The notes under the pieces are model-generated. The model worked only from the letters and a program-made list of their open reading frames with translations, was not told the DNA's origin and searched no databases. The position numbers and the translations under genes were made by a program. Of a stretch of DNA of 64,000 nt, positions 21,651 to 53,678 are shown one piece after another. The stretch covers positions 1 through 64,000 of the forward strand of contig JAJDYI010000062.1 of NCBI GenBank assembly GCA_022825235.1. Direction: 5' to 3'. Position 1 is the stretch's first letter; every line of letters starts with the position of its first letter. This DNA is from Alphaproteobacteria bacterium. GTDB lineage: Bacteria; Pseudomonadota; Alphaproteobacteria; TMED109.

Positions 21651-21651
21651 G

Positions 21652-23884: not shown

Positions 23885-23898
23885 CGCCGTACCTGTAG

Positions 23899-26760: not shown

Positions 26761-26768
26761 GCGTGGCC

Positions 26769-27128: not shown

Positions 27129-27238
27129 AACAGCGCAGTATACAGACAAGGGGCAGGAACGGAACAGACGGGGCCTCCTTCCCGGAAGCGCCCGCCGGTT
27201 TCCGGCGTGCCAAACCCCCGCATCGAAGGAGACCTCCC

Positions 27239-27658: not shown

Positions 27659-27702
27659 CCGGACCGCCGGGCATACCCCCGCCACGTTCCTGAGCACGCA
27701 CG

Positions 27703-29718: not shown

Positions 29719-29719
29719 C

Positions 29720-35115: not shown

Positions 35116-35197
35116 TCGAGTCTCGCACCTGCGCGGCCGGACAGCTCCCTGGCAAGCGAGCGTGCCGACCAGTGGAGGCTCGACTGGAGTCAGACGG

Positions 35198-38100
35198 ATG
35201 ACCGGAACGACAACACGGCTGGCGGCAGCAGTGGAGGCGTACTGCGCCGATCTTGGACGGGTGCGCGCGTCGGGCGGCGCGACCGGCGAACGGTCGAGCT
35301 ACGGGCCGCTCAGCGTCCTGCTCAACGCTGTCGGCGCGGCGCTCAAGCCGAAGGTGTTTTGTGTCGGCGAGCTTGCCGACCAGGGCGCCGGCCATCCCGA
35401 CTTCGGCCTCTACACCGCCAGGCAGGTGCAGCGGGGCCGGCCTCGGAAGGGGCAGGTGCCGGAGCGCGGCGTGATCGAGGTTAAGCCGGTGGAAGACGAT
35501 GCCTGGCTCACGGCGGAGGGCGACCAGGTCAGCCGTTACTGGGGTCGCTACCGGCTGGTGCTCGTGACCAACTTGCGCGACTTCGTATTGGTGGGCGAGG
35601 ACGCCGACGGCAGGCTGGCGAAGCTTGAGACATTCCGGCTGGCTGGCAGCGCAGATGAATTCTGGCGCAAGACGGAGAAACCGCGCGCCTTCGCAGGCGA
35701 GGTCGGTGCAGGTCTCGGCGAATACCTCGCCCGTGCCCTGTCGCACCGGGCCACGCTTGCGGAGCCCAGGGACCTGGCGTGGCTGCTGGCTTCCTACGCG
35801 CGTGACGGGCTGGCACGGGTGAACGCAGCGGGCGATGCGCCGGCCCTGGCCACGGTACGGTCGGCGTTGGAAGAGGCGCTCGGCGTCCGCTTCGAGGGCG
35901 ACAAGGGTGAACGCTTCTTCCATTCGACGCTGGTGCAGACGCTGTTCTACGGCGTGTTCGCTGCGTGGGTGCTGTGGGCGCGTGGTCAGCGATCCGACGT
36001 AGGCCCGCTGTTCGAAGGTGCCCCTGCTTCCCGCCGATTCGACTGGCGGACGGCGGTATGGCACCTCCGTGCGCCGGTGCTGCGAGCCTTGTTCCAGCAG
36101 ATGTCCGACCCTGGCCGTCTGCAACCGCTGGGCCTCGTCGAAGTGCTGGACTGGACCGCCGCCGCGCTGGACCGGGTGGACCGCCCGGCATTCTTCACGC
36201 GGTTCAACGAAGGCGACGTGGTGCCGTACTTCTACGAGCCGTTTCTTGAGGCCTTCGATCCCGCCCTGCGCAAGCAGCTGGGCGTTTGGTACACGCCGGC
36301 GGAAGTCGTGCGCTACATGGTCGCCCGCGTTGACAAGGCACTGAAGGATGATCTCGAAATCCCTGACGGGTTGGCGGCTGAGAACGTCTATGTGCTCGAC
36401 CCGTGCTGCGGGACCGGCGCCTATCTGGCGGAGGTGCTGCGCCGTATCGCGGACAATCTCGAAGGGCAGGGCCTCGGTGCCCTCTCCGGTGCGCGGGTGA
36501 AACAGGCGGCCATCGAACGGGTGTTCGGTTTCGAAATTATGCCTGCACCCTTCGTCGTTGCGCATCTGCAGGTCGGGCTCACCTTGCGGGAGCTTGACGC
36601 ACCGTTGTCGGACGATGGAACCGAACGGGCCGGGGTGTTCCTGACCAATGCCCTGACCGGCTGGGAGCCAACTACCAACAAGCCGCTGCCGTTCCCTGAG
36701 CTCGAAGAGGAGCGCGACCGTGCGGAGCGCATCAAACGGGAAACACCGATCCTCGTGATCCTTGGCAACCCGCCGTACAACGGCTTCGCCGGGATGGCGG
36801 TGAACGAGGAAAGGGAACTGTCGGAGGCATACCGCTCGACAAAGCGCGTGCGCAGGCCCGAGGGGCAGGGGTTGAACGACCTCTACGTGCGCTTCTTCCG
36901 CATGGCGGAGCGGCGCATCGCGGAGAAGACTGGTCAAGGTGTCGTCTGCTTCATCTCCAACTATTCGTGGCTCGACGGCCTCTCATTCACTGGGATGCGG
37001 GAACGCTACCTGGAGGCGTTCGACACGGTGCGGATCGACTGCCTGAACGGCGACAAGTACAAGACCGGCAAGGTCGCGCCGGACGGCACGCCCGACCCCA
37101 GCATCTTCTCGACCGAGGGCGACCCGGTCGGCATCCAGGTCGGCACCGCCATTGCGACGCTGGTGCGCAAGGCGGCGCACACGCGTGCGGAGGCGGTCGA
37201 GTTCCGGCATTTGTGGGGACAGGCGAAACCCACCCAACTGATCGAGACGGCCGAGTCGGAGCCGGATGCGCTTTATGAGACTGTCGAACCCGTCCTGCCG
37301 CTCGGGCTGCCATTTGTACCAACGGCAGCGAGCGCGGACTGGTTCGACTGGCCGACGCTGCCTGATCTATTCCCGGTGTCGTTTCCGGGCGTCAAGACCA
37401 GCCGGGACGGATTTCTCGTGGATACCGACCTCGACCGGCTTCGGGCTCGGATGGACGGCTATTTCGACGCGACGTTGAGCCACGAAGAAATCGCTTCACG
37501 TTATCCTTCCGCCATGAAGACCACGGCGCGATTCGACGCGCGCGGGGTCCGCAGTGCGCTGCTGAAGCGCGGCGGGCCTGACGAGACAGGCTTTGCCAGA
37601 TTCGCCTATCGTCCGTTCGACATCCGCTGGCTCTATTGGGAGAAGGACTCGAAGCTGCTCGACGAGAAGCGTGCCGACTACCGGCCCCATGTGTTCGAAA
37701 AAAACGTCTGGATCGAGGCACGCGAGCGAGAAGCCAAGGAAGACTTTTCACGCGGAACTCTGGTTCGACATTTGGCCGACAATCTCGGCAACGGGCTTTC
37801 CAGCTATTTTCCCGCATGGCTCCGCGATGACGGCATCGGCGATGAAGACGCCGCCGCGTGCCGCCCCAACCTTTCCGCCACCGCACAGCGTTATCTCGAC
37901 CGCCTCGGCCTCGGCATCGAAGACCTGTTCCTCCACGTCCTCGCCACTCTGCATGATCCGACCTATCGCGAGGCCAATGCCGGGGCGCTTAGGATGGAAT
38001 GGCCGCGCATCCCGCTGCCGGACTGGCCGGGTGGAATGGCCGAAGGGGCGGCGGAGGATCTCTCGAAATCAGCGGCACGCGGTCGGGAGCTTGCTGCACT

Positions 38101-38578
38101 ACTCGATTCCGATGCGCTGGTTCCTGGCGTAACGCAGGCACCCCTTCGCCCGGAGATCGCCGTCATTGCCGTTCCAGCTACTGTGAATGGTCGTAACTTG
38201 GTGGACGACGATTTCGTCGTGACCGCGGGATGGGGGCATTTCGGCCAGGGCGACGCGGTCATGCCGGGCCAGGGCCGCGCCGTCGAGCGTGCCTACACGG
38301 AGGCCGAACGAGCCGTTATGGGCGAGGCGCTGCCTGCTCTCGGTAACACGACTTTCGACATTTATCTCAACGGCGAGGCATTCTGGTGCAACGTCCCCGC
38401 CGCCGTTTGGCAGTACTGCCTCGGCGGCTATCAAGTGTTAAAGAAGTGGCTCTCCTACCGCGAGAGCAACATTATTGGTCGGGCCCTCATGCCCGAGGAG
38501 GTTCAACATGCGTCGGAAGTATCGCGGCGCATATCCGCAATCATCCTGAGCATCTACCATAGCTGTAACGAAAAATGA
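35198..38578 (+). CDS. Type ISP-like restriction-modification enzyme without helicase
   Basis: 1,126 residues. The N-terminal 200 residues have a possible nuclease-like core ('GHPDFGLYTA' ... 'RGVIEVKPVEDD', a D...ExK arrangement). The gamma-class adenine methylase follows: 'YVLDPCCGTGAYLAEVL' (motif I, about 400) and 'VILGNPPYNGFAG' (motif IV, about 523). The C-terminal half resembles the Type ISP specificity domain and ends 'FDIYLNGEAFWCNVPAAVWQ', 'GGYQVLKKWLSYRES', 'LMPEEV'. The well-studied LlaBIII class carries an SF2 helicase between nuclease and methylase; none is seen here, so this is the shorter helicase-free form. ATG 35198 has GGAG 9 bases upstream; GTG 35162 is the alternative. 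It overlaps the next gene by 4 bases. Confidence 0.85.
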   Translation: MTGTTTRLAAAVEAYCADLGRVRASGGATGERSSYGPLSVLLNAVGAALKPKVFCVGELADQGAGHPDFGLYTARQVQRGRPRKGQVPERGVIEVKPVEDDAWLTAEGDQVSRYWGRYRLVLVTNLRDFVLVGEDADGRLAKLETFRLAGSADEFWRKTEKPRAFAGEVGAGLGEYLARALSHRATLAEPRDLAWLLASYARDGLARVNAAGDAPALATVRSALEEALGVRFEGDKGERFFHSTLVQTLFYGVFAAWVLWARGQRSDVGPLFEGAPASRRFDWRTAVWHLRAPVLRALFQQMSDPGRLQPLGLVEVLDWTAAALDRVDRPAFFTRFNEGDVVPYFYEPFLEAFDPALRKQLGVWYTPAEVVRYMVARVDKALKDDLEIPDGLAAENVYVLDPCCGTGAYLAEVLRRIADNLEGQGLGALSGARVKQAAIERVFGFEIMPAPFVVAHLQVGLTLRELDAPLSDDGTERAGVFLTNALTGWEPTTNKPLPFPELEEERDRAERIKRETPILVILGNPPYNGFAGMAVNEERELSEAYRSTKRVRRPEGQGLNDLYVRFFRMAERRIAEKTGQGVVCFISNYSWLDGLSFTGMRERYLEAFDTVRIDCLNGDKYKTGKVAPDGTPDPSIFSTEGDPVGIQVGTAIATLVRKAAHTRAEAVEFRHLWGQAKPTQLIETAESEPDALYETVEPVLPLGLPFVPTAASADWFDWPTLPDLFPVSFPGVKTSRDGFLVDTDLDRLRARMDGYFDATLSHEEIASRYPSAMKTTARFDARGVRSALLKRGGPDETGFARFAYRPFDIRWLYWEKDSKLLDEKRADYRPHVFEKNVWIEAREREAKEDFSRGTLVRHLADNLGNGLSSYFPAWLRDDGIGDEDAAACRPNLSATAQRYLDRLGLGIEDLFLHVLATLHDPTYREANAGALRMEWPRIPLPDWPGGMAEGAAEDLSKSAARGRELAALLDSDALVPGVTQAPLRPEIAVIAVPATVNGRNLVDDDFVVTAGWGHFGQGDAVMPGQGRAVERAYTEAERAVMGEALPALGNTTFDIYLNGEAFWCNVPAAVWQYCLGGYQVLKKWLSYRESNIIGRALMPEEVQHASEVSRRISAIILSIYHSCNEK

Positions 38579-39312
38579 ACGCATCAAACGTAAGTGACAA
38601 AAGGAAGATTATACTGTTTTTTGTGAAATTCTTCTCCAAGAAGAATTACGCATGCGAATTCATGCGGGGAAAAGTCTATGCTAATAGAATTTCCTACTTC
38701 AAGGACATTGAAGGAACGGATCATTCTGGTCGGGCTGACAGACACGAGGGTACAATTGGCTGGTTTCAGCCGAACCAGGGCAGACTCAAGATAAATGAGA
38801 TGGAAATCACGGGTGATCTTGCAGGACCAATTGAGATGCAGAGGGAATGGTTGAATTACAGAAATATGTTCTGCGTACATGCGGCCCATACAGGTGATAT
38901 AGATTTGGGTAACCTTTCTGTCCCCAACGTCGAAGACCTGAGAAGACAGTTAGAATTGTCAGAAGACTGTCTGAAACTCGGTAAATTCGCGGTTGTGATC
39001 AAGAATATACCGGAATTTGTGAAACGGATTGAGGCGGCTTCGGAACAAAAAGGTTATCGGCTGTCTCGCGGACTGGTGAAATATTATAATCCAGATACAT
39101 TTCACGGCAGTTTTTCGGACTGGGAAGCTGTTTTCAGGAAACGAGCAGAATATCAGTGGCAGCAGGAATATCGCTTCATCATCGATACTCTTGTTGTTGG
39201 AGACTGGCCAATTGTTCTTGAGATGGGCGACATACGAGACATCGCATCATGTTTCTACGCTTCGAAGATTAACGAGGAACTATTGGGCGGAGAGATTAAG
39301 TTCCTCTCGTAA
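38575..39312 (+). CDS. Unknown protein coupled to the Type ISP gene
   Basis: 245 residues from an AT-rich gene, in sharp contrast with its GC-rich neighbour. No family was named, but 'FFSKKNYACEFMRGKVYANR' followed by 'ISYFKDIEGTDHSGRADRHE' recalls a group of uncharacterised proteins found near defence genes. 'YQWQQEYRFIID' near the C-terminus is another conserved-looking motif. No membrane segment or signal peptide is seen. The start ATG overlaps the stop of the Type ISP gene (ATGA), so the two are translated together and the product may be an accessory of that system. The base composition suggests separate acquisition. Confidence 0.75.
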   Translation: MNASNVSDKRKIILFFVKFFSKKNYACEFMRGKVYANRISYFKDIEGTDHSGRADRHEGTIGWFQPNQGRLKINEMEITGDLAGPIEMQREWLNYRNMFCVHAAHTGDIDLGNLSVPNVEDLRRQLELSEDCLKLGKFAVVIKNIPEFVKRIEAASEQKGYRLSRGLVKYYNPDTFHGSFSDWEAVFRKRAEYQWQQEYRFIIDTLVVGDWPIVLEMGDIRDIASCFYASKINEELLGGEIKFLS

Positions 39313-39747
39313 GGGAACTTCATTGACGCCCCCAAAACCTTCCCCGCTGCCTCGAGAAAGTGCGCAACAGCAAGGCGGGAGTAGCCCGAGGTCGTGCCAC
39401 CGCTTCGATTCCTGAATAGCGTAACCGACCAAGAGAAGGTCTTCGCGCGCCGAGACAGCCTGACCCAATGCGATCTGGCGAAGATGATGCACCCGAAGTC
39501 TGCCCAGCTTGGCGTCCGTGCAGGCCGTCCGCCAGCAAGCGGCAACGCTGAGCATCGCTGCATGTACCGCTGCCTTCAGCACAGCGCGAACAGCAACGCA
39601 TCACGGTTGCCCGCACGGTGCAGCGCAACGATGTACGTGGGTGCGGCATGGTCGGACGCCGCCGTCCGCTGGCCGGTTTTCGCATCAAAGATGGATTGCA
39701 TCGGTTCCAACGGCTCGGCAGCGCAGATTAAGCACGTCGCTACAGCG
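39313..39747. other. Gap, probably degraded coding sequence
   Basis: About 435 bases without a convincing gene. Open frames on both strands lack motifs. Because the next segment is a decayed Type ISP C-terminus in the plus orientation, this stretch may be older remains of the same gene, but I could not align it by eye. Confidence 0.4.
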
Positions 39748-40022
39748 ACACCCGGTGACGTGCGCACAGCAATGGCTGACGCTGCGGCTGCGGTAGGTGG
39801 CGCGACACTTGACATCTAACCAATGGTGAGCCGTTCTGGCGCAATGTCATCGCCATCGTCATAACCTACCGGAACGACAGCTACCAACTTCTGACGAATT
39901 GGCTCTCGTGCCGAGTGCGCGATATCTTTAGCTGGCGTCTCATGGCAGAAGAAGTCGTAGAGGTCGCGGAACTGGTTCAGCGGATTGGTCCAACATCGGT
40001 ATGGAACATAAGCTCTCGGTAG
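39748..40022 (+). pseudogene. Remnant of a second Type ISP C-terminal domain
   Basis: Two frames joined at about 39817 read 'TAMADAAAAVGGATLDI' and then 'NGEPFWRNVIAIV', 'YQLLTNWLSCRVRDIF', 'RLMAEEVVEVAELVQRI'. They align residue for residue with the end of the intact Type ISP protein 1.4 kb upstream ('AVMGEALPALGNTTFDIYLN', 'GEAFWCNV', 'YQVLKKWLSYRESNII', 'LMPEEVQHASEVSRRI'). A frame change at the TAA near 39817 and the loss of everything upstream make it a pseudogene. The two copies differ at many positions, so this is an old or separately acquired relative and not a recent duplication. Confidence 0.75.
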
Positions 40023-41053
40023 CGCAGGCGGTGGTGGTCCCGCCGGTGTACTCGTTGGAAGTTGAATGGCCATCCAACATTGGCGCCGCGATCGCCCGTT
40101 CGGCAGAGGCCTTCAGGGCAGTTGTTGCTAAAGCCGCCCTCGTGCGCTCGGAGGAGGTCGAGCGGCTATCCAGCATCGGCGCTGCCGTGGCCCGTTCGGT
40201 GGAGGCGTCCAGGGGAGTCTTTGCTACAGCTGCCCTCGTGCGCTCGGAGGAGGTCAAGGGGCTATCCAGCATCGCCGCCGCCGCGGCCCGTTCGATGGAG
40301 GCGTCCAGAGGGGTCTTTACTACAGCTGCCCTCGCGCGCTCAGAGGAAGTCAAGCGGCTATCCAACATTGGCGCCGCCATTGCCCGGTCGGTAGAGGCAT
40401 CCGCCTTCTGTGCCGTCTCCGGCAGCGTCGTGCGCATGGGCGATGCCCGTCGGAACTCTATCGCTGCTGACGAGCGCGATGAAGCGGCCATGCGTGCCGT
40501 CCTCAATCCGGATTTGGCAGCATTTCCGCGCGCTACCTATCCTGGAGTTCTCTTCAGCACAGGATTTAGGCTGTCCATCGCGTCAGTGCCTGTGCCACAA
40601 GCAATCGAGGAACCTGATGCTGGTGCAGGGTTCAATCCACATCACTGGCAAATTCTTAATGCCTTGGAGCAGAGACTGCGGCAAGTAGTGGAGCAACGCC
40701 TGGAGGATCTTTCTGGACCAAATTGGATTAGGCAAAGAGTACCGCAGACCGTGCGCGAGCGTTGGCTGGCTCGGCAACAAGAAGACCGCGTCAGTGGAAG
40801 ATCTGTCTATGGTGAGATCCAATATGCAGATTTCATGGATTTGGCAGTAGTAATTGCAAAGAGCGACAATTGGCGTGAAGCGTTTCAGTCAATCTTTAGG
40901 GATCGAAATGAAATTGCGGTGTCACTTTGTCGACTGCACCCTGTGCGGAAGGCACTCGCACATAGCCGTCCACTTGGTCGCGCAGATGTATTGACATTGG
41001 TTGGCGAAGCGACTCGAATTTTCCATGCCTTGGGGATGAGAGTGCTGCACTAG
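40001..41053 (+). CDS. HEPN-domain protein with 32-residue tandem repeats
   Basis: 350 residues. Residues 25-136 are three full and one partial copy of a 32-residue repeat (core 'GAAVARSVEASRGVFATAAL' then RSEEVxxLS), probably a helical spacer. The C-terminal domain (about 220-350) resembles Swt1-type HEPN domains: 'WIRQRVPQTVRERWLARQ' then 'WREAFQSIFRDRNEIAVSL' and 'VRKALAHSR', whose R-x4-H is the HEPN catalytic pattern. HEPN proteins are usually RNases in defence or toxin systems. ATG 40001 overlaps the end of the ISP remnant by 22 bases. There is no strong ribosome site, so the gene may once have been coupled to that ISP gene. Confidence 0.7.
   Translation: MEHKLSVAQAVVVPPVYSLEVEWPSNIGAAIARSAEAFRAVVAKAALVRSEEVERLSSIGAAVARSVEASRGVFATAALVRSEEVKGLSSIAAAAARSMEASRGVFTTAALARSEEVKRLSNIGAAIARSVEASAFCAVSGSVVRMGDARRNSIAADERDEAAMRAVLNPDLAAFPRATYPGVLFSTGFRLSIASVPVPQAIEEPDAGAGFNPHHWQILNALEQRLRQVVEQRLEDLSGPNWIRQRVPQTVRERWLARQQEDRVSGRSVYGEIQYADFMDLAVVIAKSDNWREAFQSIFRDRNEIAVSLCRLHPVRKALAHSRPLGRADVLTLVGEATRIFHALGMRVLH
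40073..40408 (+). repeat. 96-bp tandem repeats inside the HEPN gene
   Basis: Copies at 40073-40168, 40169-40264, 40265-40360 and a partial one at 40361-40408. They are similar but not identical at DNA level (for example GCGCTCGGAGGAGGTC recurs). In-frame unit length means copy number could change without breaking the gene. Confidence 0.85.
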
Positions 41054-41078
41054 GAGATCGGATGCCGGAGTGGGATCC

Positions 41079-42029
41079 ATGTTCGCCTTAGAAAATTCAG
41101 GAGGCCGCCGAAGAGCCTCTGTTGGCGATATGGAGCTAGAAATCATCGATATTGATGAACGCGGACACGTGACAGCAGAATGTGACTACGTAGCGCTTTC
41201 CGAGGCTTCATTCGATGCATTTCCGGAGTCGTTTTCGGTGCGTGTGCATAGCTCAGATGGTTTCGGCACATTCCTGTTTCATGAGGCGGAGATTTTCAAA
41301 GAAAATAGCGGCGAAATAATAGCTGACTACATCTGCCATCAACCTAACAAATTCTGGGAAAGGACATGGGGCCTAACCACTTTCTTGGTTGCAATTAAGG
41401 ACCAAGTTACATTCTGTAATGAAGTGAGTGTCACCGATATTGAAGTAGACGATGACTTTAAGCAGTTGACGCTGAGAACAGCTCTTCAAGGGGTTTCGGC
41501 TGCGGAAGCGTTAAGGGGAGGCGCAGATAGACTGAAACATATTATCCGTGAGGCAGAAATCGCTTTGGGCGGCAAGGTGTGGAAGCCGAATTACGCTGCC
41601 AATGAGCGAGCATTTTGCGAGGAAGTCTTGGCCCCACTTCTAAGGCGGATGCAATTCATGTCCGTAAGGTATACGCAAGGCGATCGTGAGTACGGTAAAG
41701 ACTTCACCTTCTCTGAAGTGACCCCGTTCGGAGCAATGAGGCATTACGGTCTTCAAGCAAAAGCAGGGGACATAACAGGAGAGGTGAATTCCCTCATCGA
41801 CCAAATTGTGGGTCAAGCAGAAGACGCGTTCAAGATGCCATACTACGATTTGTCGTCTGCTGAGCCCCGATACATTTCGACGTTTGTCGTCGCAGCAAGT
41901 GGGCGTTTTACCGCCAACGCTCGAGAAAAGATAATTCACAAAACACCTCGTGGCCTTCACGGATCGATGCTCTTTCTGGATCGGGAATCAATCCTTGAAC
42001 TTGTGGAGAGATATTGGAAGACCGCCTGA
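41079..42029 (+). CDS. Protein with Mrr-like QxK nuclease domain
   Basis: 316 residues. The first 150 residues are beta-rich and unrecognised ('MELEIIDIDERGHVTAECDY'). The C-terminal part has 'NERAFCEEVLAPLLRRMQF', 'REYGKDFTF' and 'HYGLQAKAGD', a D...QxK pattern as in the Mrr branch of PD-(D/E)xK nucleases, so it is probably a DNA-cutting domain. The gene begins 25 bases after the HEPN gene in the same direction, and 116 bases separate it from the STAND gene. ATG 41079 is chosen; an in-frame GTG at 41070 is possible. GC content is lower than in the transfer genes. Confidence 0.68.
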   Translation: MFALENSGGRRRASVGDMELEIIDIDERGHVTAECDYVALSEASFDAFPESFSVRVHSSDGFGTFLFHEAEIFKENSGEIIADYICHQPNKFWERTWGLTTFLVAIKDQVTFCNEVSVTDIEVDDDFKQLTLRTALQGVSAAEALRGGADRLKHIIREAEIALGGKVWKPNYAANERAFCEEVLAPLLRRMQFMSVRYTQGDREYGKDFTFSEVTPFGAMRHYGLQAKAGDITGEVNSLIDQIVGQAEDAFKMPYYDLSSAEPRYISTFVVAASGRFTANAREKIIHKTPRGLHGSMLFLDRESILELVERYWKTA

Positions 42030-42145
42030 TACGAGTGTCGACAGTGCACCGCCAAGTCAAGCGCTTACGAAGATAGCAAAATGAACTACCTGCCACATCT
42101 CCCAATTCTTGAACGATCAGCACTACAGAGTGCTGGATCTTGAAC

Positions 42146-45100
42146 ATGCCAGATCGCACATCTGCCGCAGGTGGGGCTAACGCGGCACTCGACGGATTCG
42201 AGTACCAGCTAGGCGTCTCGGTGCTAGCAGCCCTACAGCTGATGCTGATTACGAAGTCGTCGACACGGATCACACTTGAACCTGCCAACGAAGAAGACCT
42301 GGAGGCTGATCTCGAACCAACCACGCCAGGCCGAGTGCAGCCTAGCGCCAATGTCGCTAAGGGCTACAAGATTGTCGTGCAGGTGAAGCTCCGTAACAGT
42401 GGGCCTTGGACGATCGAGGCCTTTAATTCACTGCTGAAACACGGCACGACTCGCGAGCCGGCCAGACACCATCTTGAGCATCCTGACACACGCTACCTGA
42501 TGATCACCAACGCTGACGCCACCGGCGTGGCTCGCAATCTGTTGGTCAACGGCCTGGAAGAGTGGCCGGAGGATAAGGTCATTCCAGCTACTCTGTCAGC
42601 GATCTTACCCCATGAACCAGAAGGTCGGATCGCGATCTGGGGCGTTCTGACCGAGCCCCTTCTGGATCTGAAGATAAACGACGTACTTAGCTCTTTGCTT
42701 CGGGTGCCCAAGAGCCGGCAGATGGAATGTCGGGAGCGCCTAAGGGACGAGGCACTTCGGCGAATGCGCGGAACGAGTCCAGGCGTGTGGACGCGCGAGG
42801 ACCTGCTGAGCGTCATCCGTGGCTGTGGAGGTTCCTTGGCCAGCGCTCCGGAGCTCGAGTCGTTCGTGCCGCCAGCGAACTATCAGGACCTGAAGGATCT
42901 ACTCCAACGCCGGAACGCTCTTGTTATCACTGGGCCGTCAGGTACAGGCAAGACCCGTACGGCGCAAGCGCTTGTCGATCTGGCGCGACATCGACCCTCA
43001 CCGCCAGAGATCATTGAGCGCAATGCCAGCCACGACCCATCGAGTACGCGAGTGCTGTCCGACACCGGTCCAAAGCTCTTCTACGTCGAGGATCCGTGGG
43101 GACAGTCCAGTCTCCGGGACGGTGCCGACGCCTGGACCGAGCAACTCCCCCGGTTGTTACGCGAGGCGCATGCCGGGCGTCAGTATGTGGTCACATCACG
43201 CACAGACATGCTCGCGCAGGCTAGGGCCGACCGGCGCCTCGATCGTTGGACGGTCGTGCTGGACGCTGATCAATACCGCGATGGTGAACTCGCAGACATT
43301 TACGACAAACGCCTCGATCTGTTGGCACCGGATCTGCAGGCCAAGGCGCTGGACTTCCGGGCGGAGGCTCTGGACGCGCTAGAAACGCCGCTCGAAGTCG
43401 ACCTGTTCCTCACCAGCTTGGCATACGGCCCGAAACCGGGTGAGGTTGATCCTGCCTTCTTCCGCCGCATTCTTGCACTGGCACATCGCGACGCTGTAGA
43501 AGACGTGGTTGTTTCCTACCTGCGGAACGAAGATCGAACCGGCGCATCAGCAGTCGTATGGGTTCTGCTAGCGGCGAGATCGCAGTTCGACCGCAGTCAG
43601 CTGGTCAACCTGAACCGTTGGCTGCGGACCGTCGATTTAGCCTTTAGCGACGGGCTCGGGAAGCTGGTGGACCGGCTCGTCGCCACGCGTCATCTCCGCC
43701 AGCCCGGCCAGATCGTTAGCTTTTCACATCCGAGCGTCCGCGCGGGCTTCGAGGTGTACGTCAAGGAGAATTGGGGTCGTAGCGAAGCTGCCCTGATATC
43801 ACTGATTTCCGCTTTGACTCAGGTCTGCGGTTCCCATCGGGACTGGGCACTCGAAACCGCAGCCCGTTCGCTACAGGCAATCGCCGATCTCATCTCCGGC
43901 ACCGAGAGTCTTGATGCGGAATTTCAAGCCGAGAGCTCCAGTCATGCGGCGATTGACGCATGGCTGGAAAAGAGCTTGGCTGATCCGCGCGCCGATTTCC
44001 GATCTGTGCTGCAACTGGCGTCCGATGTGGGCACGCAGACATCAACCCCGTCAGAACTTGCGAGTTGGTTCATCAAGGGTATCCGGCGTGGAGGTCAATG
44101 GTTCCTCGATCGTTGGGAACCGCCGACGTTCGACGATGCCTAGTATACGCGGGTCTCGGCTGATCCACGGTCTTTCACAATCGCAGATAGGTATGTTCGC
44201 GAACAATTGCCGCGGGAGCGGGACAGCGTCGGCGATGATTTTGCGAACCAACTCGATCGAATAGCGAGTGGCCTTACGCCGGCCTTTGTCGCCGCGGCGC
44301 GCAAGCTGGTCGCCTCTGGTTATGAAACTAATGTCGGCGCGGTGGCGGCCGGGGCGGTGCGGGATCTCGATCGCTATGGAGAGGTGCTTGCTGCGGCGCT
44401 CGACGAACTAGCCAGCATTTCTCGGTCGTATGAGCGGGAGGGTAGGGAGCAATTGCGCGCGATTGAGGACGGAGAATGCGATGAAGCCTATGAGGAGAGC
44501 TTTAGATGGCAGCACGAAGGTGACGGCTATTGCGCTGACGTTCTCGTTGCAGCCTATGTGAGAAAGGTCAGGTCACTCAACCACTGGCAGACACTGGCGG
44601 TACATTCCCGGGTGTCTGAGCTGGGCCGTGCATGGGCTGAGGACATTGCCCGCACGAACGGCTCGGTCACACTGGAGGAGCTTAGGGCCGTCATCGCTGC
44701 TACGCGGTCAAGCGAAGACGAAGAGCATGCTTGGGAAGCGGCCCGCCAGCATTGGCAAGCTTCGCTCGCCGCCGACCTTGAACAGCGGATCCTTTCGGTT
44801 CCGGATGACGACGGCCTGCGCGCAGCACTTATCCATTGCGCCTTGACTGCATCACCAGCCACGCTGGCCCTCTGCCTCGAGCAATCATCCTCGGCACCGG
44901 CAACTTTCGTCCACCTCCTAGTGGATATGCATGCAGCGTATCGCCAGATTTCCAGCAAGACGCGCGAGCGGCGCCTGCGGCCGCTCCTTGAGTCGATTCC
45001 GAATGCTGGCAAGGAGATATTCCGGGCTGTAGCCACCAACGACAAGCCTCCGCCCTCTGTCGGACTGTCGGCCCTATCCCTGCTGGATGAAGCTGCGGAG

Positions 45101-46126
45101 ACGGTGCCGCCCTTCGTCCTCGACAAGATCGTGCCGGTGATGATCGCCAGTGGTTCCGCCCCTTCGGCTGCCATTCGACGATGGCTCCTTGCGGCCAAGG
45201 GCCATCGACTTGCGAAGGCTGCCGTCGAAGCCGCAACTCGCATTCAGGACGACGCGCTTGTGTCGCTTGGGCTTGACCATGCGCGAGCAGACGCTCGCGA
45301 GGCGGCGCTTGTCCACCTCGCGAACTCCTCGCCAGATCCGCTGCCGCAGCAGCTTCTGGAACTGGCATCCGATCCCGGTAGCCGGGTCCGGCGCGGCTTG
45401 GTCGGCATCCTTGCAGCTCGGCCCCATCCGAACCATCAGAGCGTGCTCCTCCAATTGATCGACGACGAATGGTCCGACGCCGACTTATCTCACAATGATC
45501 CGCCTTCCTATCCGATCGCGCGTGAGGCAATAAGCGGGCTCGCTGCCTACGACAGCCTGTCGGATGAAATCGGGGAAGACTTGTTGCTTCGAGCCGAGCG
45601 CACGGATGACCGCTTGCTCGGCATCATCGCGCTCGACACTGCCGCGCGATGTTGCGGCCCAGCAATCCGCAGGAGGATATGGACCCTGTCCTTCCTCGAC
45701 CAGCCCCGTTGGGTCCGCGTCGACGCAATCGATGCCTTGAACAAGGCGGATGTCGTCGAAAGCGACATTTTGGGTGCGATCACCGGCAAACTTCTTTTGC
45801 GACTGGCGCCGCCTCTGGCCGCCTCCGCTTGCGTACTATTGTCGAATCACGGACGAGCCGACGCTGTGATTGAGGCGATGGAGCGGGTTGCGCAATCGAC
45901 GAAGAGGTGCGCTCTGCTGTTGTTAGGCGTCAATTTCCTTGCCGACCGCGACCGCCCCGCCGCCAACCGTCTGCTGGCATTGCTCGCCCCAGATCACCCT
46001 GCGCGGCGACTGCTCGAACTCGAAGATGGCGAGCAGTTGCCGAAGACGGCGCTCGACAGTTTGGGACACATCCGTATTCGAAATGCGGTCCAGCGCTGGC
46101 TCGATGATAAAATCGCCAAAGATTGA
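42146..46126 (+). pseudogene. Avs-like nuclease-STAND-HEAT protein interrupted by an in-frame TAG
   Basis: One frame of 1,327 codons is broken only by TAG at 44141-44143 (codon 666). N-terminus: 'ALDGFEYQLGVSVLAALQLM' and 'YKIVVQVKLRNSGPW' (D/E...QxK) look like a DUF4297/Cap4-type nuclease. Then a STAND NTPase: Walker A 'NALVITGPSGTGKTRTAQAL' (about 253-272) and 'PKLFYVEDPWGQSSL' (Walker B). After the stop the same frame continues as plausible protein ('DPRSFTIADRYVREQLPRER') into a helical HEAT-like C-terminus with sensor-type layout, ending at 46126. The downstream part has only a weak TTG start (44207). Known relatives are single proteins with nuclease, STAND and repeats, so this looks like a nonsense-mutated phage-sensing gene. 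Two separately translated proteins or a sequence error are alternatives. Confidence 0.72.
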
Positions 46127-46281
46127 GTCCGCCATTGTCGAGTCGGTCCGAGTGAGTGTCGCTACGACTATCGTAGATGTCGCGTGACGGGCTCAATGGG
46201 GATCAGCTGACATAACGTGACCAGTGCCACTCGATGGTCTTTCCGGCAAGAGGTCCAGCGCGCGAGCCAGTCGACTGACTA

Positions 46282-47496
46282 CTATGCAGGGCCTTGCGCA
46301 AGCAAGCGAATAACGAATCGTTCGTCCAGTTCGACTAAGTCAGGTTCAGTGCCGTTGTGCTCTCTCATGCCCCTAACGATTTTCCGGGGAATCCCCATCC
46401 CCATGTGTTCCAGATACCGATAGTCGCGCATCACGTCTTTCAATAGCTGATTTCGTGCAGATCGGGTCCCAAACCGCATACGGTCAGGCGTTATCCCATT
46501 GGGCAGCCGGCCCGGCGAGATAATCTCCAAACGGTTGCTATAGACGGCTAATTCGATATCGGTGCTTGTGAGTAGGTAATCTCGGTGAATCAGGGCGTTG
46601 ACGATGCCTTCGCGAAGGGCATCGTGGGGGTAGACCGGACGCTCCACGCGTCTTCCACCTCGTGCCTCGACCTCCATACGCGTGTTGCGTTGCACAAAAT
46701 CCAGAGCCTGCTCGACGAGACCGTTTTCAACGAAATCGTCACCTTGACTCAGCAAAGGAGTCATGGGGCCGCGAAGTGCCGTACGCTCTTGCGCGTCGTA
46801 GCCCTGGTCCGATCCGGGATAGGCGACGGCGTCTATCCCCGCATGCGGCAGAAATCGGTTCGGCGTCGCGCCGAATAACAGCATGCCACCGACCGTCACG
46901 CCTTCCTCGGTCATCACCTCGGTGTTGATGAGAAGTGACTGCCAGGCTTCCTCATCTTCGTCGTCCGGCACATCCTGCTGGCGGATATCGCCGAAGTAGT
47001 TTCGCAGACGCCTCCGGTCCAGGTTCGCGAGTGTAGCGCCCGATACGGGCCGAAGTTCGGCCCGTACGGAACCTCTTTGCTGAAACAGGCGTGCAAGTTC
47101 CTCCTGGGTTGCTTCCCTACTCTGTGTACCGACACGTATCTGATACTTGTTGGAGTTGTTGTGCCAGAGCGCATGCACGTCGTAGCCGCGAGTCACGCGG
47201 ACAACGGCAACGTCGTGATTGTCTTTGACACCCCGAACCATTTCGAAGAAGGGAATGATCGCTGGTCTGATTTTGTCGCGGCATACATTCATCACCCATT
47301 CTTCGAGGTCGGACCGCATCAGGCCCGTGATTGTTCCGTCATCTTCGACGCCAAGCAGCACCGTGCCGCCTTGAAAATTCGAGAAAGCTACGAGCTCCTT
47401 CGCGAGATTCAGCGTGCTTAGATCATCCCTCTTGAATTCCACCCCGGAATTCTCGCCGCTCGCTATGATTTCCAGCAATTCGGTGAGCGTCGTCAT
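46282..47496 (-). CDS. AlbA_2 / Schlafen-like DNA-binding ATPase
   Basis: 404 residues. 'ENSGVEFKRDDLSTLNLAKE' and 'LVAFSNFQGGTVLLGVEDDG' are the AlbA_2 (Schlafen AlbA_2) domain. The C-terminal 'LREGIVNALIHRDYLLTSTD' and 'LEIISPGRLPNGITPD' are the GHKL-like ATPase (HATPase_c_4) that usually follows, with a final winged helix. Such proteins are predicted regulators, some in defence loci. The start ATG is 3 bases after the stop of the PHP-SMC gene, so the two form a minus-strand operon. It converges with the STAND gene. Confidence 0.85.
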   Translation of the reverse strand: MTTLTELLEIIASGENSGVEFKRDDLSTLNLAKELVAFSNFQGGTVLLGVEDDGTITGLMRSDLEEWVMNVCRDKIRPAIIPFFEMVRGVKDNHDVAVVRVTRGYDVHALWHNNSNKYQIRVGTQSREATQEELARLFQQRGSVRAELRPVSGATLANLDRRRLRNYFGDIRQQDVPDDEDEEAWQSLLINTEVMTEEGVTVGGMLLFGATPNRFLPHAGIDAVAYPGSDQGYDAQERTALRGPMTPLLSQGDDFVENGLVEQALDFVQRNTRMEVEARGGRRVERPVYPHDALREGIVNALIHRDYLLTSTDIELAVYSNRLEIISPGRLPNGITPDRMRFGTRSARNQLLKDVMRDYRYLEHMGMGIPRKIVRGMREHNGTEPDLVELDERFVIRLLAQGPA

Positions 47497-47499
47497 GTC

Positions 47500-50196
47500 T
47501 CAGAACCCGTACTTGGAGCGGCGCATCTCGAACGCGGCCTTTCCGCCTTCGAGGATTTCTTCGACCAGTTCGCGCACAGGTCTGGAGTCGATGGAGGCCA
47601 TATGCTTCGGAGCGATCCGCGCTTGGCCTTCCCTGGCCTCGCCGGTCGCAGCGAGCCCGAGGATGAGTTCGGCATCGCCGAGGACCGGAATGTTGGCGTT
47701 GTGCGTCGAGAAGACGAACTGGCGGCGGCGCTTTTCCTGCCGCATGATCGGAACCACGCCCTCCGTGATGAAGCGGTTGTCAAGATCGTCTTCGGGCTGA
47801 TCGACAACCAGCGGCGCTTCCGATTCAAGCAGCAGGAGCAACAGAACGGCCGTTGCTTTTTGGCCTGTCGATAGCGCTTGAAGCGTTTGCCAATTGGTCG
47901 GTGCCCCGTCGGGAGCCGTGTTTAGTTCAATCTCTGTTGTCGCAGGTAATTCCAGCTCTTCGATACGCATGAACAGGTCTAGATCGGCTTGCGCGATCCG
48001 CTCGGCCGCACCGGACGGCAGACTGTAGTGCTTCCTGAGGGCTTCCTTGCCCTCCCGGCACCGCTGCGCAAGTTCCGGCAAAGACAGCTGGTCGAGTCCG
48101 CGCAGGCGATCTAGCGCGGCGGCAAGATTGCCGCCGACCTCGCGCAAGAGCCGTTCGAGCGGCTCACGGTTTCCGGCCATCGTGACCCTTACATGCACTC
48201 GGTCGCGGAGCTTCCGGGATACCCGCTTTGCCGCGGTCTCGACTTGCCTGTACTCGGCTGCCTTGATGTCTTCCCACTCGGCCAAGAGTTTGCGGCGCTG
48301 GGCCTCGTGCGCATCCAGATCGCGCCTGAGGCGTTCCATCTGGTCGTTCAGCGGGCGCAACTCCTCAATTTGCTGGCGAAGCTGGATGAATTCCGCGCCG
48401 TCGATCTTCGATTTCTGGAGTTCACGCAGGACTTTTTCGTAGGTTTCCTCGATTGAGGTCTTGCGCTCGTTCCAGCGTAATTTGGTCTGCGCAATCGCGT
48501 GATCGGTTTCGGCAAGAGCCTTGCCGAACTGTTCACCGAGTGTCTCCAGTTTCGTGCTTAGCGTTTTGAGGATTCCCTCGATTTCGGAAAGGATGTCGGA
48601 GTTCGGCAGCCCTTCCAGGGCCTTGCTGGTAACGAACGCTGTATCGACGGGTAGACCCTCGGTGAGTTCATTGCGGAGGGTACGGTACTGGTCAAGCCGT
48701 TCCTCCAGGTTGGCGAAGAGCCGTTCTTCACGAACGAGCAGGCTCTTTTCCTTCAGCCGTCCTTCGAGCCCGGCCTGCTGGAACCGCATTTGTGTCTCCT
48801 CGAGACCCGGTAGCGCCGCAAGTCGCTCGTCGAGGTGCTGCAGCTCACGGCGCACATCCATGATCCGGCTTCGGGAACGCTCCAGTTCCAAACATACTTG
48901 GGTTTTTCGTCCCGAAAGGGTTGGGTCCCAGTCAACGAAGCGCTCCAGTAGCAGCGTAAGTTTCTCGCGACTCTTCGTGAGTTCGGAAATTTCGTGCTGC
49001 CCGAAGACCTCCACACCCGGCATCACGTCACGTGGGGACAAGGTCAGGACTTCCCCCGCTTCGTCCTTCACCACGGGCGGATTCGGCACCGATCTTTCAA
49101 CCGTGTAGCAACGCACCGACGGCTTGTGTGACCGCACAAGCAGCGAGACCTTTGTCCCTGGTTGCAGGACGTGGCGGATCACACCCTCGTGGGCCTTCCG
49201 AGCTTCCTCGCCGAGAGGATCGAGACCGAGTGCGTAGCGTATGCTCTCGATCATCGTCGATTTGCCGGTGCCCCGTCCACCTACCAACACATTCAGGTTT
49301 TCATTGAATTGCACGGCCGTGTCGCGGAGGAACCCGCCTTCCCAGGTCATCGCAAGGAACTCGGCATGAGGTTCGGGCTTCAGATCGCTGTGTAGACGGA
49401 CCCGGGAATCCGGGTCGAGAAACGCCTGCCGGAAAGCTTCCACCGAAATGGTAGACATCTTGATGAAGCAAGAGGCGCCGTCTTTCTTCAGGTCCTCTGG
49501 GCCATTGACGTCCGAAGCGTTGAGGATCGCGGGGGGGCGGTCGCGTTTGTGCGCGGCGTCCTTGTTTCGGAGGATCGGTCCGATCCCCTCTGGCGCGTCA
49601 CCAACTGAACCCGGCAGCGCGCAGGCCAGCAGGTCGGGATGGGTCCAGACATTGACCCTCGATTGACCCGACAGCTTCCTCAGCAACCCGCCTTCGGAGG
49701 CTACATGGGCGGCAATGCATACCGCGCCCCAGCTCTTCGCGGCTTCAAGCAGCTCAATGGAATCCTTGCTGCCAGTTGGTGACGGTTGATCGGTGTCGTG
49801 AATGCCGCACTCCCCGATGAAACGCTCCAGAACTTCGTCCTTGTCGGGATCGAACAGGCACAGGAAATGAACACCGTCCTTCGTAACGGCTTCGAAACCA
49901 CTGAATGCATGGAGATTCGCATTGCGCGCAGCGCGCACGAGGCGTGCAGAGTGCTTAACGCGGTAGTGATCCGTGACCGCGATTGCCTCGATGCCGATCT
50001 CAAGGCAGGCCTCGATGATCGCCGTGTTGTATTCGTCTTCCGACTGGAAGGAGGACGCCTTCTTGTGCGTCTCAAGATAGGCGAACGGATTCACTTGCAA
50101 GGCGCAGCGGTAGAACCGCGCACCATCCGGTAACTCGAGTGCGGCTTTCATGCGATCCGAGAGCGGACGCGCCAGGCTGTTGGCCTCTGCGGTCAT
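47500..50196 (-). CDS. TrlF-type PHP phosphoesterase fused to SMC/RecF-like ATPase
   Basis: 898 residues. The N-terminal PHP-like domain has 'AIAVTDHYRVKHSARLVRAA' (about 73-92), 'VCIAAHVASEGG' and 'NVWTHPDLLACALPG'. An ABC/SMC head follows: Walker A 'LNVLVGGRGTGKSTMIES' (about 303-320), a coiled-coil region (about 425-700), the signature 'ALSTGQKATAVLLLLLLE' and Walker B 'PLVVDQPEDDLDNRF'. This is the TrlF-family architecture, predicted to couple ATP-driven DNA or RNA sensing to a PHP hydrolase. It lies upstream of and is co-oriented with the AlbA_2 gene, a pairing that suggests a two-gene defence module. Start ATG 50196 is clear from the domain start. Confidence 0.85.
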   Translation of the reverse strand: MTAEANSLARPLSDRMKAALELPDGARFYRCALQVNPFAYLETHKKASSFQSEDEYNTAIIEACLEIGIEAIAVTDHYRVKHSARLVRAARNANLHAFSGFEAVTKDGVHFLCLFDPDKDEVLERFIGECGIHDTDQPSPTGSKDSIELLEAAKSWGAVCIAAHVASEGGLLRKLSGQSRVNVWTHPDLLACALPGSVGDAPEGIGPILRNKDAAHKRDRPPAILNASDVNGPEDLKKDGASCFIKMSTISVEAFRQAFLDPDSRVRLHSDLKPEPHAEFLAMTWEGGFLRDTAVQFNENLNVLVGGRGTGKSTMIESIRYALGLDPLGEEARKAHEGVIRHVLQPGTKVSLLVRSHKPSVRCYTVERSVPNPPVVKDEAGEVLTLSPRDVMPGVEVFGQHEISELTKSREKLTLLLERFVDWDPTLSGRKTQVCLELERSRSRIMDVRRELQHLDERLAALPGLEETQMRFQQAGLEGRLKEKSLLVREERLFANLEERLDQYRTLRNELTEGLPVDTAFVTSKALEGLPNSDILSEIEGILKTLSTKLETLGEQFGKALAETDHAIAQTKLRWNERKTSIEETYEKVLRELQKSKIDGAEFIQLRQQIEELRPLNDQMERLRRDLDAHEAQRRKLLAEWEDIKAAEYRQVETAAKRVSRKLRDRVHVRVTMAGNREPLERLLREVGGNLAAALDRLRGLDQLSLPELAQRCREGKEALRKHYSLPSGAAERIAQADLDLFMRIEELELPATTEIELNTAPDGAPTNWQTLQALSTGQKATAVLLLLLLESEAPLVVDQPEDDLDNRFITEGVVPIMRQEKRRRQFVFSTHNANIPVLGDAELILGLAATGEAREGQARIAPKHMASIDSRPVRELVEEILEGGKAAFEMRRSKYGF

Positions 50197-50223
50197 CTTC
50201 GGTTCTCCGAGAGCTCAAACGTA

Positions 50224-50400
50224 TCAAACCTCATTCCTGCTCCGATTTTCTTGCTGTTCGGCGACGTATCTCTCGACCGCGTCCCGGACAACCCAAGCCA
50301 GGGACACCTTCTTCTGCCTAGCGAGCTGTTCTAGAACCTTGTAGATATCTGGTGGAAAGCTGATCGATGCACGCACGGATGCGGCGCCTTCAGGTTTCAT
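50224..50400 (-). CDS. Small ribbon-helix-helix DNA-binding protein
   Basis: 58 residues from ATG 50400. 'VRASISFPPDIYKVLEQLAR' followed by 'KKVSLAWVVRDAVERYVAEQ' is a clear CopG/RHH fold. GGGAGG lies about 10 bases upstream of this start; an in-frame ATG at 50430 would add ten residues. It sits 27 bases upstream of the PHP-SMC gene in the same direction and probably represses that operon. Confidence 0.8.
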   Translation of the reverse strand: MKPEGAASVRASISFPPDIYKVLEQLARQKKVSLAWVVRDAVERYVAEQQENRSRNEV

Positions 50401-50829
50401 GCTTTGCCTGCCTCCCTTGCGACCGTCCATAGCATGGCGGTGCCTGACACGCTCTTCACCACGTTACACCAAGTTGGTGAACGTCAATAGTCCTGGCTAG
50501 CGGTCGCTGAAGTTTCGGCGGGCCAAGGCGAGGAACCGGCTCTACGCGCGCTTCGGCCCTTCCAGAGCCTCTCATGCCGCTCAGCTGATTCTGGATGCCC
50601 GCGGGTGCGGGGCGAAGGCTGCAAGACGAAATCGTGTTCGAATCTATGCAGCGTGAGAGGGTTGCGCCGCTGCCTTGCTGGGAGCGACGCCGGAAAGAGA
50701 TGTACGGTTTGATCGCAGGGACAGCGAAATATCGCGCATGAAGGGTCAGGCGTTTGGAACAGTGTCCATAATGAAGCATGTCTGAGTACGTGGCGGAGTT
50801 GGATAAAGCAATGTGGAGGTAATCAATCC
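50401..50829. other. Gap between divergent operons
   Basis: About 430 bases that should hold the promoters for the minus-strand RHH/TrlF/AlbA_2 operon and the plus-strand HD/GHKL gene. I see no clear gene and no perfect inverted repeat. A tRNA-like stretch near 50790-50870 does not fold. Confidence 0.4.
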
Positions 50830-50925
50830 GTGGGCCGGGGTTCGACGCCGCAGGCAAGATCGGCGGTGCGGAACCATTCACTGGACGTTTTTCGGTCGCG
50901 ACGCAGCCGTCACCGGTACAAGGGC

Positions 50926-51078
50926 GTGGCCGTCATTCCGGTTGGCTATGAGTTTCGCGCACACCCAAAAGGCCTAAGAGCGCTGAAGTCTCGGACGACC
51001 GTGTCAGCCAAGTTATCAACTATTGATGCCACGGAGCGTATAAAGGCAATTGGAAGACGTTTGGAAGACTGTGAATGA
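50926..51078 (+). CDS. Small unknown protein preceding the HD/GHKL gene
   Basis: A 50-residue basic frame from GTG 50926 ('VAVIPVGYEFRAHPKGLRAL'), open upstream to GTG 50830 (82 residues). The only evidence that it is real is its end: the TGA overlaps the ATG of the next gene by 4 bases, as in a translationally coupled pair. No family was recognised and no ribosome site is obvious. Confidence 0.35.
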   Translation: MAVIPVGYEFRAHPKGLRALKSRTTVSAKLSTIDATERIKAIGRRLEDCE

Positions 51079-53678
51079 CTACCAGCGGACCTGACTTTCG
51101 TCAGACGTGGATCTGGCGCCAGGCATTTGAGACTCCTCGGTCAGACAGCACTACCGAGGAACAAGCGTATTTCAGGGAGCAGTATCTCTCTATTCGTGAT
51201 CGGTCGGCCCAACTTGTTTCACGGATTGCGACGGATATACCTGGTCTGACCGTCCACGACATCAGTCACCTCGACGCGCTTTGGGATACGGCATCCGCCG
51301 TCGCCGAAGGGGCAGTGAATGTAAATCCCCCAGAGGCGTTTGTGCTTGGTTCCAGCATCCTATTGCACGACGCAGCTATGAGTTTGGCGGCATATCCCGG
51401 CGGGCTATCAGACATTATGAAAACCACAGCGTGGAGAGATGCAACAGCACGGCTTGCGCTCGTATTGGAGGAGAGCGGCGCAGAACCGTTTGACGTTTAC
51501 AACCCATCTAAAGACGTTACTAGACAAGTGGTTCCGCAAGTTCTTCGTCAGCTTCATGCAGAGCACGCGGAGGAATTGGCTGGGCAGGCTTGGAACAATC
51601 CCGATGGTTCACTGGCCCATCTCATCGAGGATTCTGATCTCCGCACCTTCTATGGACCTACGATTGGCCAAATTGCGCACAGTCATTGGTGGTCCGTACA
51701 GAGGCTGGAGCATGAGTTCTCCGAACACCTCGGAGCCCTAGCAAATCGGACCCGCAGCCGAGTGGACCGGTTGATGCTCGCGTGTCTCTTGCGAGTGGCG
51801 GATGCCCTGCACCTCGACAGCCGACGAGCCCCGCGTTTTCTGCGGGCTATCACAGGTCCTAGCGGCGTCTCCGCCTTGCACTGGTCGTTTCAGGAGCGCT
51901 TGGCAAGACCCCACATAGAGCTGGATGCGGTGGTTTTTACGACTGGGCAGCCATTTGGCCGAGAAGACGCAGAAGCGTGGTGGCTGGCATACGACACGCT
52001 AAATGCAGCTGATCGCGAGCTGCACGATGTAGATTTGCTGTTGCAGGGCCATAGATCACAAATTCTGAAGGCGAGAAGAGTTAAGGGTGCAGGATCCCCT
52101 GAACTTCTTGCCCGATCGGTTCAAACTAGAGAGTGGCGCCCGGTCGATGCGAGACTTCAGGTTTCCGATGTTCCGCGAATAGTCAAACACCTAGGGGGAT
52201 CGAAGCTTTACGGCGATAACCCGACTGTAGCTCTTCGAGAGCTGATCCAAAATGCCGCCGACGCAGTGCAAGCCAAGCGTAAGTTCGAAAATCGATCGGA
52301 CAACTGGGGCAGAATCACGGTTGGACTCTTGTCACGGAGCAACGAGACGTGGCTCGTTGTTGAAGACGATGGGATCGGAATGTCAGAGCGCGTGTTGACT
52401 GGGCCATTGCTGGATTTCGGTTCGTCGTTCTGGCGTTCGCCACTTGCAACAGAAGAGTTCCCGGGCCTAATGGCGGCAGGAATGCGCTCGATCGGTCGAT
52501 TTGGCATCGGGTTCTTTTCGGTATTCATGCTCGGTTCGGTTGTTCGTGTTTATTCGCGGCGCAGTGACTGGGGACGGAATTCAGCTCGGTTATTGGAATT
52601 TGATGACGGTACAGGTGCAAGACCCATTTTGTCCCCCGCTCCCGACGGCCCGGTACCAATAGATGGCGGAACGCGGGTGGAAGTGAAATTGAAGACAAAG
52701 CCTCATGAGTCCGGTGGTTTGCTGGATGTTAATTCGCCCTTCGGGCCAGTGATTTCGTTGGATGCGCTAGTTGGAGCGGTGGCGCCGAATCTCGATGTAG
52801 AGGTCGTGGCAAGTTTGGAAGAGAAATTAGTGCCGGTAGTAAGGGCAGGCGATTGGTTGCAAATAGAGAACATTGATTTGTTGCATAGGCTCGACCCTGC
52901 CCTGGATCGAGCCAAAGACAGTATGGCGAGGGCGGGAAAGGCACTGATGCAGCCTATTGAGGGGCCTGCTGGTGAGCTGTTTGGCAGGGCGTTCATTTGG
53001 CCGGAGCCGTATTCTTTTTCTAAGGAAGGAGGATGGGTCACTATTTCGGGCCTACGGGCGGCGCAGATTAGTAACGTGCAAGGCGTGATGCTGGGGGAGG
53101 CAATGACGGCGGCGAGAGATACGGCTAAGCCGCTGGCCACCAAGGACGCTCTGGTCCTCTGGGCAACGAAGCAAGCAGATATTATCGGTAAGTCGGTAAA
53201 GGACGAGGAACGACAAGCACGCTCCGCCGAGGTCGTGTTGGAATGTGGAGGCGATATCGGAAATCTCAAGATAGTCAAGTGGGCGAATGAGTGGATGACA
53301 GAGCAAGAATTCGAAGACAACCTTTGCTCTTCATCTGAGTTGGCAATCAACTTTGATGGAGAATTCAGCTATGACGAGGATCAAGATAGTGTTCACCCTA
53401 GAGATTTTCGGGAGGACTTCAATATATCAGAAGATGTAGCGCTGGTGCTTAAGCACGATGGCAGTATACTCAGCATAGGGAATACTAAATGGCCTGGGTC
53501 GCTCGTTAGACGACAGAAGCCGCAATACTCGAATGTAGCAGCTTATGTAATAGACATAATTCAACGGGTATGGGGCGAGAAGGCAGATGAAGATGAAGAG
53601 GAGCGTGTGGTAGGTACTGTAGGTGGCGAAGACATTTGGCGTCGGGTGACGGTGTTTCGTATTGCGGAAGTTGAGTAG
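51075..53678 (+). CDS. HD-CE-like HD domain fused to Hsp90/GHKL ATPase
   Basis: 867 residues. N-terminal HD domain: 'LTVHDISHLDALWDTASAVA' (about 57-76), 'GSSILLHDAAMSLAAYPGG' (the HD pair, about 91-109), then 'RSRVDRLMLACLLRVADALH'. A GHKL ATPase follows: N-box 'VALRELIQNAADAVQAK' (about 377), G1 box 'VVEDDGIGMSERVL' (about 430), G2 box 'IGRFGIGFFSVFMLG' (about 470). The rest is beta-rich, like Hsp90 middle domains, with an acidic C-terminus. HD-CE/GHKL fusions are predicted conflict proteins in which the ATPase gates an HD hydrolase. All key residues are present. Lower GC than the flanking operons suggests transfer. Confidence 0.85.
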   Translation: MTTSGPDFRQTWIWRQAFETPRSDSTTEEQAYFREQYLSIRDRSAQLVSRIATDIPGLTVHDISHLDALWDTASAVAEGAVNVNPPEAFVLGSSILLHDAAMSLAAYPGGLSDIMKTTAWRDATARLALVLEESGAEPFDVYNPSKDVTRQVVPQVLRQLHAEHAEELAGQAWNNPDGSLAHLIEDSDLRTFYGPTIGQIAHSHWWSVQRLEHEFSEHLGALANRTRSRVDRLMLACLLRVADALHLDSRRAPRFLRAITGPSGVSALHWSFQERLARPHIELDAVVFTTGQPFGREDAEAWWLAYDTLNAADRELHDVDLLLQGHRSQILKARRVKGAGSPELLARSVQTREWRPVDARLQVSDVPRIVKHLGGSKLYGDNPTVALRELIQNAADAVQAKRKFENRSDNWGRITVGLLSRSNETWLVVEDDGIGMSERVLTGPLLDFGSSFWRSPLATEEFPGLMAAGMRSIGRFGIGFFSVFMLGSVVRVYSRRSDWGRNSARLLEFDDGTGARPILSPAPDGPVPIDGGTRVEVKLKTKPHESGGLLDVNSPFGPVISLDALVGAVAPNLDVEVVASLEEKLVPVVRAGDWLQIENIDLLHRLDPALDRAKDSMARAGKALMQPIEGPAGELFGRAFIWPEPYSFSKEGGWVTISGLRAAQISNVQGVMLGEAMTAARDTAKPLATKDALVLWATKQADIIGKSVKDEERQARSAEVVLECGGDIGNLKIVKWANEWMTEQEFEDNLCSSSELAINFDGEFSYDEDQDSVHPRDFREDFNISEDVALVLKHDGSILSIGNTKWPGSLVRRQKPQYSNVAAYVIDIIQRVWGEKADEDEEERVVGTVGGEDIWRRVTVFRIAEVE

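Follow-up and report, generated by a model that had tools for sequence, protein, structure and literature searches.

A presumed single-chain STAND defence gene of an integrative conjugative element, probably inactivated in recent time by one nonsense mutation

Proteins of the Avs type combine, in a single chain, an N-terminal effector, a STAND NTPase and a C-terminal repeat sensor. Avs5 has an nSTAND3 NTPase, its conserved aromatic residues bridge the NTPase and the repeats, and deletion of its last predicted C-terminal repeat helices abolished immunity (PMC12931631). Defence genes are gained and lost at high rates (PMC5379612), so that a broken sensor gene is in itself an ordinary finding. 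Here, we describe a gene in a window of 64,000 nucleotides (the whole stretch that was analysed, from contig JAJDYI010000062.1 of the alphaproteobacterial assembly GCA_022825235.1) whose intact relatives follow the Avs plan, and whose own chain ends at an in-frame TAG. It is most probably a single-chain STAND defence gene, carried by an integrative conjugative element and recently inactivated by one nonsense mutation; both the defence function and its loss in the TAG-bearing gene are what we infer.

The frame at 42146-46126 on the forward strand comprises 1326 codons and in translation has a single internal stop, with 665 residues before the TAG at 44141-44143, 660 residues after it and a terminal TGA at 46124-46126 (Table 1). 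A profile of the family spans this frame from positions 5 to 1328 of 1329 and counts one TAG inside, and in tblastn with the frame read through, 73% identical proteins cover residues 2-1326 without a break. The two halves are therefore one gene, and a chance open frame is ruled out. An earlier note made from the sequence alone had proposed that the coding frame runs on through the TAG, from an NTPase into a HEAT-like part, and both points are borne out, the domains in outline, with an nSTAND3 domain before the stop and a half made up of helices behind it. The intact relatives begin close to the start point of the window gene, and the codons after the TAG are probably untranslated.

Table 1. 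Features of the window and broken copies of the family; positions are those of the window unless another sequence is named.
Feature	Position	Strand	Basis or remark
F-type conjugation genes: TraC, TrbC, TraG, TraD, TraI relaxase	14036..32833	+	
Defence cargo island	35162..53678	.	
HEPN-Swt1 protein	40001-41053		
Mrr-like protein	41070-42029		
Product of translation up to the TAG (665 residues), comprising nuclease-like N-terminus, nSTAND3 NTPase and helical part	42146..44143	+	
Probable Cap4/DUF4297-like PD-(D/E)XK nuclease domain, residues about 10-140	42173..42565	+	LmuA profile, weak Cap4_nuclease, invariant columns
nSTAND3 NTPase domain, residues 240-390	42863..43315	+	PF20720 E 6.5e-17; AAA+/STAND folds over 234-443
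Helical part after the NTPase, residues 395-665; putative winged helix and first helical repeats	43328..44140	+	model
In-frame TAG at a near-invariant tryptophan column (12/13 relatives)	44141..44143	+	
Remainder after the TAG, 660 codons, HEAT-like solenoid, presumed sensor	44144..46126	+	structure model, Foldseek
AlbA_2/HATPase_c_4 gene	46282-47496		
TrlF-family PHP-AAA ATPase	47500-50196		
HD-CE and HSP90-like ATPase protein	51075-53678		
Tyrosine integrase	55404-56591	minus	
L010			homology stops after residue 456
L017 (Agrobacterium)			IS cluster between residues 720 and 735; C part still downstream
L019, L020			frame lost within NTPase
L021 (R. leguminosarum OyaliB)	4808-6926 (own sequence)		residues 65-698 lost; 98% identical to intact L015
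L074			frame break near residues 573-607
L075, L023, L071, L072, L073			remnants

The first 140 residues are probably a Cap4-like nuclease, a call made with reserve on sequence grounds. The invariant residues E45, E50, D51, E53, Q79 and K81 are all kept in the window protein, and the LmuA nuclease profile matches 12 of the 14 family members (best E 1.8e-5), while Cap4_nuclease matches weakly and below cut-off in two relatives only (E 0.027 and 0.049). PF20720 is present in all 14 members and scores 62.1 bits in the window against a curated cut-off of 27.2, covering profile positions 1-153 of 155. The P-loop GPSGTGKT at 42932-42955 (G263 to T270) has its invariant positions intact, and the further NTPase motifs EDPWG (residues 315-319) and TSR (350-352) follow. 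The model of the N half, for which alignments without plasmid-collection sequences were used as for the other model, is poor (pLDDT 57, mostly below 30 in the nuclease region); its match to AAA+ and STAND folds over the NTPase part is thus a lead only, as are AVAST5 and Avs4 at ranks 2 and 3 of a Foldseek search that gave no match at E <= 0.001. Residues 450 to 640 are modelled as helices with pLDDT mostly 75-92.

The C half is modelled far better (mb903d68cbe18, pLDDT 87.4) and is all-helical, with about 40 helices forming a superhelix of antiparallel pairs as expected of a HEAT solenoid. Pfam HEAT_2 is found in 6 of the 14 members, the top Foldseek matches are HEAT/karyopherin proteins (E 3e-4, low TM-scores), and the closest solved folds are the PP2A scaffold, transportin 3 and CAND1. 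This solenoid is presumed to be the sensor, and the TAG lies at the junction between it and the nSTAND3 NTPase module.

Relatives were sought with the frame read through, in plasmid records and in species genomes, and 13 full-length ones were aligned (L003-L009 from seven genomes, L011-L016 from six plasmids); three further full-length relatives are present in genomes. In all 13, a single open frame of about 1330 codons crosses the TAG point without a stop. Identity to the window protein is 73% for L003, L004 and L006, then 66, 57 and 56%, and 28-45% for the others. The column of the TAG holds tryptophan in 12 of the 13 and aspartate in one, and none of them has a stop at this site. The pattern is that of a nonsense pseudogene, uninterrupted in the relatives and continuing in the same frame, and of the possibilities raised in the earlier note it supports the inactivated sensor. 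The opposite outcome named there, homologues that normally exist as two proteins with a boundary at this point, was looked for and did not appear: all full-length relatives found here are single-chain. The family is rare, with one of 385 genomes in the class sample and two of 398 in the phylum sample, counts in which the genome of the window itself is included. Phage records gave no family match and viral contigs no relative, so that the family is not phage-borne in those collections. The Bradyrhizobium genome that carries L008 has a second, divergent and intact family copy (L076, G413:C44:12569-16510).

The lesion seems to be young. No further stop occurs in the 660 codons after the TAG, no indel column relative to L003, L004 and L006 falls in the core of either half, and where six close relatives show no variation, the window gene departs from them at 6.7% of columns in the N half and just as often in the C half. 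The C/N ratio of dN is about 1.3-1.6 in pairs with the window against 1.5-3.8 in intact pairs and is therefore not raised, which argues against relaxed selection on the C half. Had the C half evolved without constraint over the full length of the window's branch, at a neutral distance of 0.3-0.6, about 18-35 extra stops would be expected, and 0 are seen; from stops alone, the unconstrained share of that branch is at most about 9-17%, an approximate bound like the other age bounds since the synonymous distances are rough and near or partly saturated. Without a further stop, indel or sign of relaxation, the lesion is recent. It counts somewhat against a broken gene that the other large genes of the defence island appear intact, with decay thus not general. 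That other large genes of the window are open without stops speaks against the rival reading of an intact gene whose TAG stems from faulty sequencing or assembly, from polymorphism within the strain or from a minor variant of the culture. Such an artefact is unlikely, and a real lesion is plausible given that copies elsewhere in the family have been broken independently, although the TAG is the only lesion in 1326 otherwise conserved codons and the interrupted gene is present as a single copy in a draft genome of 87 contigs.

Conservation of the second half would also be expected if programmed or suppressed readthrough yielded a little full-length protein past the TAG and thereby kept a costly sensor low, but a recent mutation accounts for it too. 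TAG is an ordinary terminator in the window, ending 6 of the 18 genes chosen for the count of stop codons, the relaxase among them. The earlier note had suggested a search for suppressor tRNAs; none of 42 tRNA family matches in the genome (a 96% complete draft, in which a tRNA may have been missed) has a CUA anticodon, and tRNA-Trp is encoded once. As the relatives, too, lack a stop at this position, the readthrough option of that note is disfavoured, and we consider it highly improbable. If the gene were naturally divided into two cooperating proteins, the second begun by re-initiation behind the TAG, this would agree with a stop at a module boundary and with the R. leguminosarum copy L021, in which a separate frame encodes the C half. 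However, L021 is a deletion derivative that matches the intact L015 at 98% identity but lacks residues 65-698, no two-gene form of the family was found, and none of the in-frame start candidates after the TAG has a ribosome-binding site before the TTG at 44453, which lies far into the solenoid; the chance of such a split is very small. With TAG in normal use, no CUA tRNA and no good restart, suppression and deliberate splitting are both unlikely. Given the uninterrupted relatives, the likeliest reading is a defence gene of the ordinary kind that broke not long ago, and not a novel mode of decoding.

Breakage recurs in this family. Among 31 distinct loci examined, 19 have full-length frames (L003-L009, L011-L016, L018, L022, L024, L076-L078) and 12, the window included, are broken or fragments; judged from their sequences, the copies are broken independently and by different lesions (Table 1). 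Lost frames occur in Sphingomonas and R. leguminosarum, and the internal deletion that separates L021 from L015 is very recent. Among plasmid records, 9/19 are nearly complete for this family against 42/49 for the neighbouring TrlF-family gene, used as control (Fisher p 0.003; 0.015 without two duplicates). A higher breakage rate than that of the control is suggestive only, as hosts, sampling and completeness criteria differ, and the comparison rests on one control gene, a second having had too few records. The high broken share and the variety of lesions suggest that the intact gene is costly or soon dispensable. The earlier note also considered a gene kept off at a cost, with which the frequency of broken copies agrees, but this looks the same as plain loss. 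It is very unlikely that the TAG serves, under selection, as a reversible or leaky off-switch for a costly immune sensor; if true, the family would persist partly as silent alleles able to come back in the population once phages do.

The F-type conjugation genes with their TraI/TrwC relaxase and the tyrosine integrase place the island on an integrative conjugative element, and the sensor gene is part of its defence cargo. The island encodes a type ISP restriction enzyme, HEPN-Swt1, an Mrr-like protein, the sensor, an AlbA_2/HATPase protein, a TrlF-family ATPase and an HD-CE/HATPase protein. None of nine window neighbours recurs beside the relatives, the exception being a 95-residue TrlF-like piece upstream of two of them; without a recurring neighbour no multi-gene system is evident, and the gene seems to travel on its own. 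In its N-terminal half, the HEPN-Swt1 protein carries several repeats of about 34 residues that resemble one another, and its gene adjoins that of the Mrr-like protein, possibly as a two-gene system. The TrlF-family ATPase gene, with relatives common on enterobacterial plasmids, stands beside the AlbA_2/HATPase_c_4 gene and is convergent with the sensor gene. The HD-CE and HSP90-like ATPase protein has only three plasmid relatives at E 1e-30, one of them a 75% identical remnant in Rhizobium.

The intact protein most likely works as Avs proteins do: its C-terminal solenoid would bind a phage product, the NTPase would then oligomerise, and the N-terminal nuclease would cut DNA and stop the infected cell; a single nonsense mutation at the junction of NTPase and sensor would recently have disabled this gene. 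A literature search found no experimental defence test of this family. The 665-residue product keeps its nuclease-like and NTPase motifs but has lost the sensor; most likely nothing can trigger it any longer, which would leave it inert. These retained motifs, and L017 as a truncated copy of similar extent, would also fit a shortened nuclease-NTPase protein with a function of its own, for example a constitutive or dominant-negative form. L017 was cut by an IS cluster, though, with its C part still downstream, and the recent origin of the TAG leaves no time for selection on a short form to show; we regard such a function as barely credible. As a gene probably lost through one nonsense mutation, the locus offers a roughly dated case of immune-sensor loss, mildly interesting as one instance of a recurrent process, and with proper controls the share of broken copies would allow genome data to be used to measure what STAND sensors cost. 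It also adds a little-described single-chain family of nuclease-like, nSTAND3 and HEAT parts that is spread singly among proteobacterial genomes and plasmids.

The earlier note's label of an Avs-type protein holds for the domain plan and not for membership, since the window protein matches none of the curated Avs models (AVAST types 1-5); one of the 14 members matches Avs4, weakly (E 0.0016-0.003). Avs5 (AVAST type 5, SIR2-nSTAND3-repeat) shares PF20720, the single chain, an N-terminal effector and C-terminal helical repeats, but has a SIR2 N-terminus where the window protein is nuclease-like, and a TPR/Sel1 sensor in place of the long HEAT-like solenoid. Avs2-Avs4 (nuclease-STAND-TPR) resemble it in the nuclease-like N-terminus, the STAND NTPase and the long helical C-terminus, and Avs3 (8dgc) aligns with the weak N model over residues 6-657 (VIA-align, Z 9.0, rmsd 23.2, 448 aligned), yet their models give no sequence match to the window protein. 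The PADLOC candidate PDC-S73 is alike in the NTPase region in 13 of the 14 members (best 1.3e-8), with the match in the window protein limited to profile positions 172-294 of 752. LmuA of Lamassu and the Cap4 nuclease share the N-terminal E..EED....QVK pattern and weak profile matches, whereas here the domain is fused to a STAND NTPase and neither an LmuB partner nor a cyclase is seen. From ordinary broken genes of defence islands the window gene differs in nothing essential, and its product is best read as Avs-like in plan while fitting no named Avs type.
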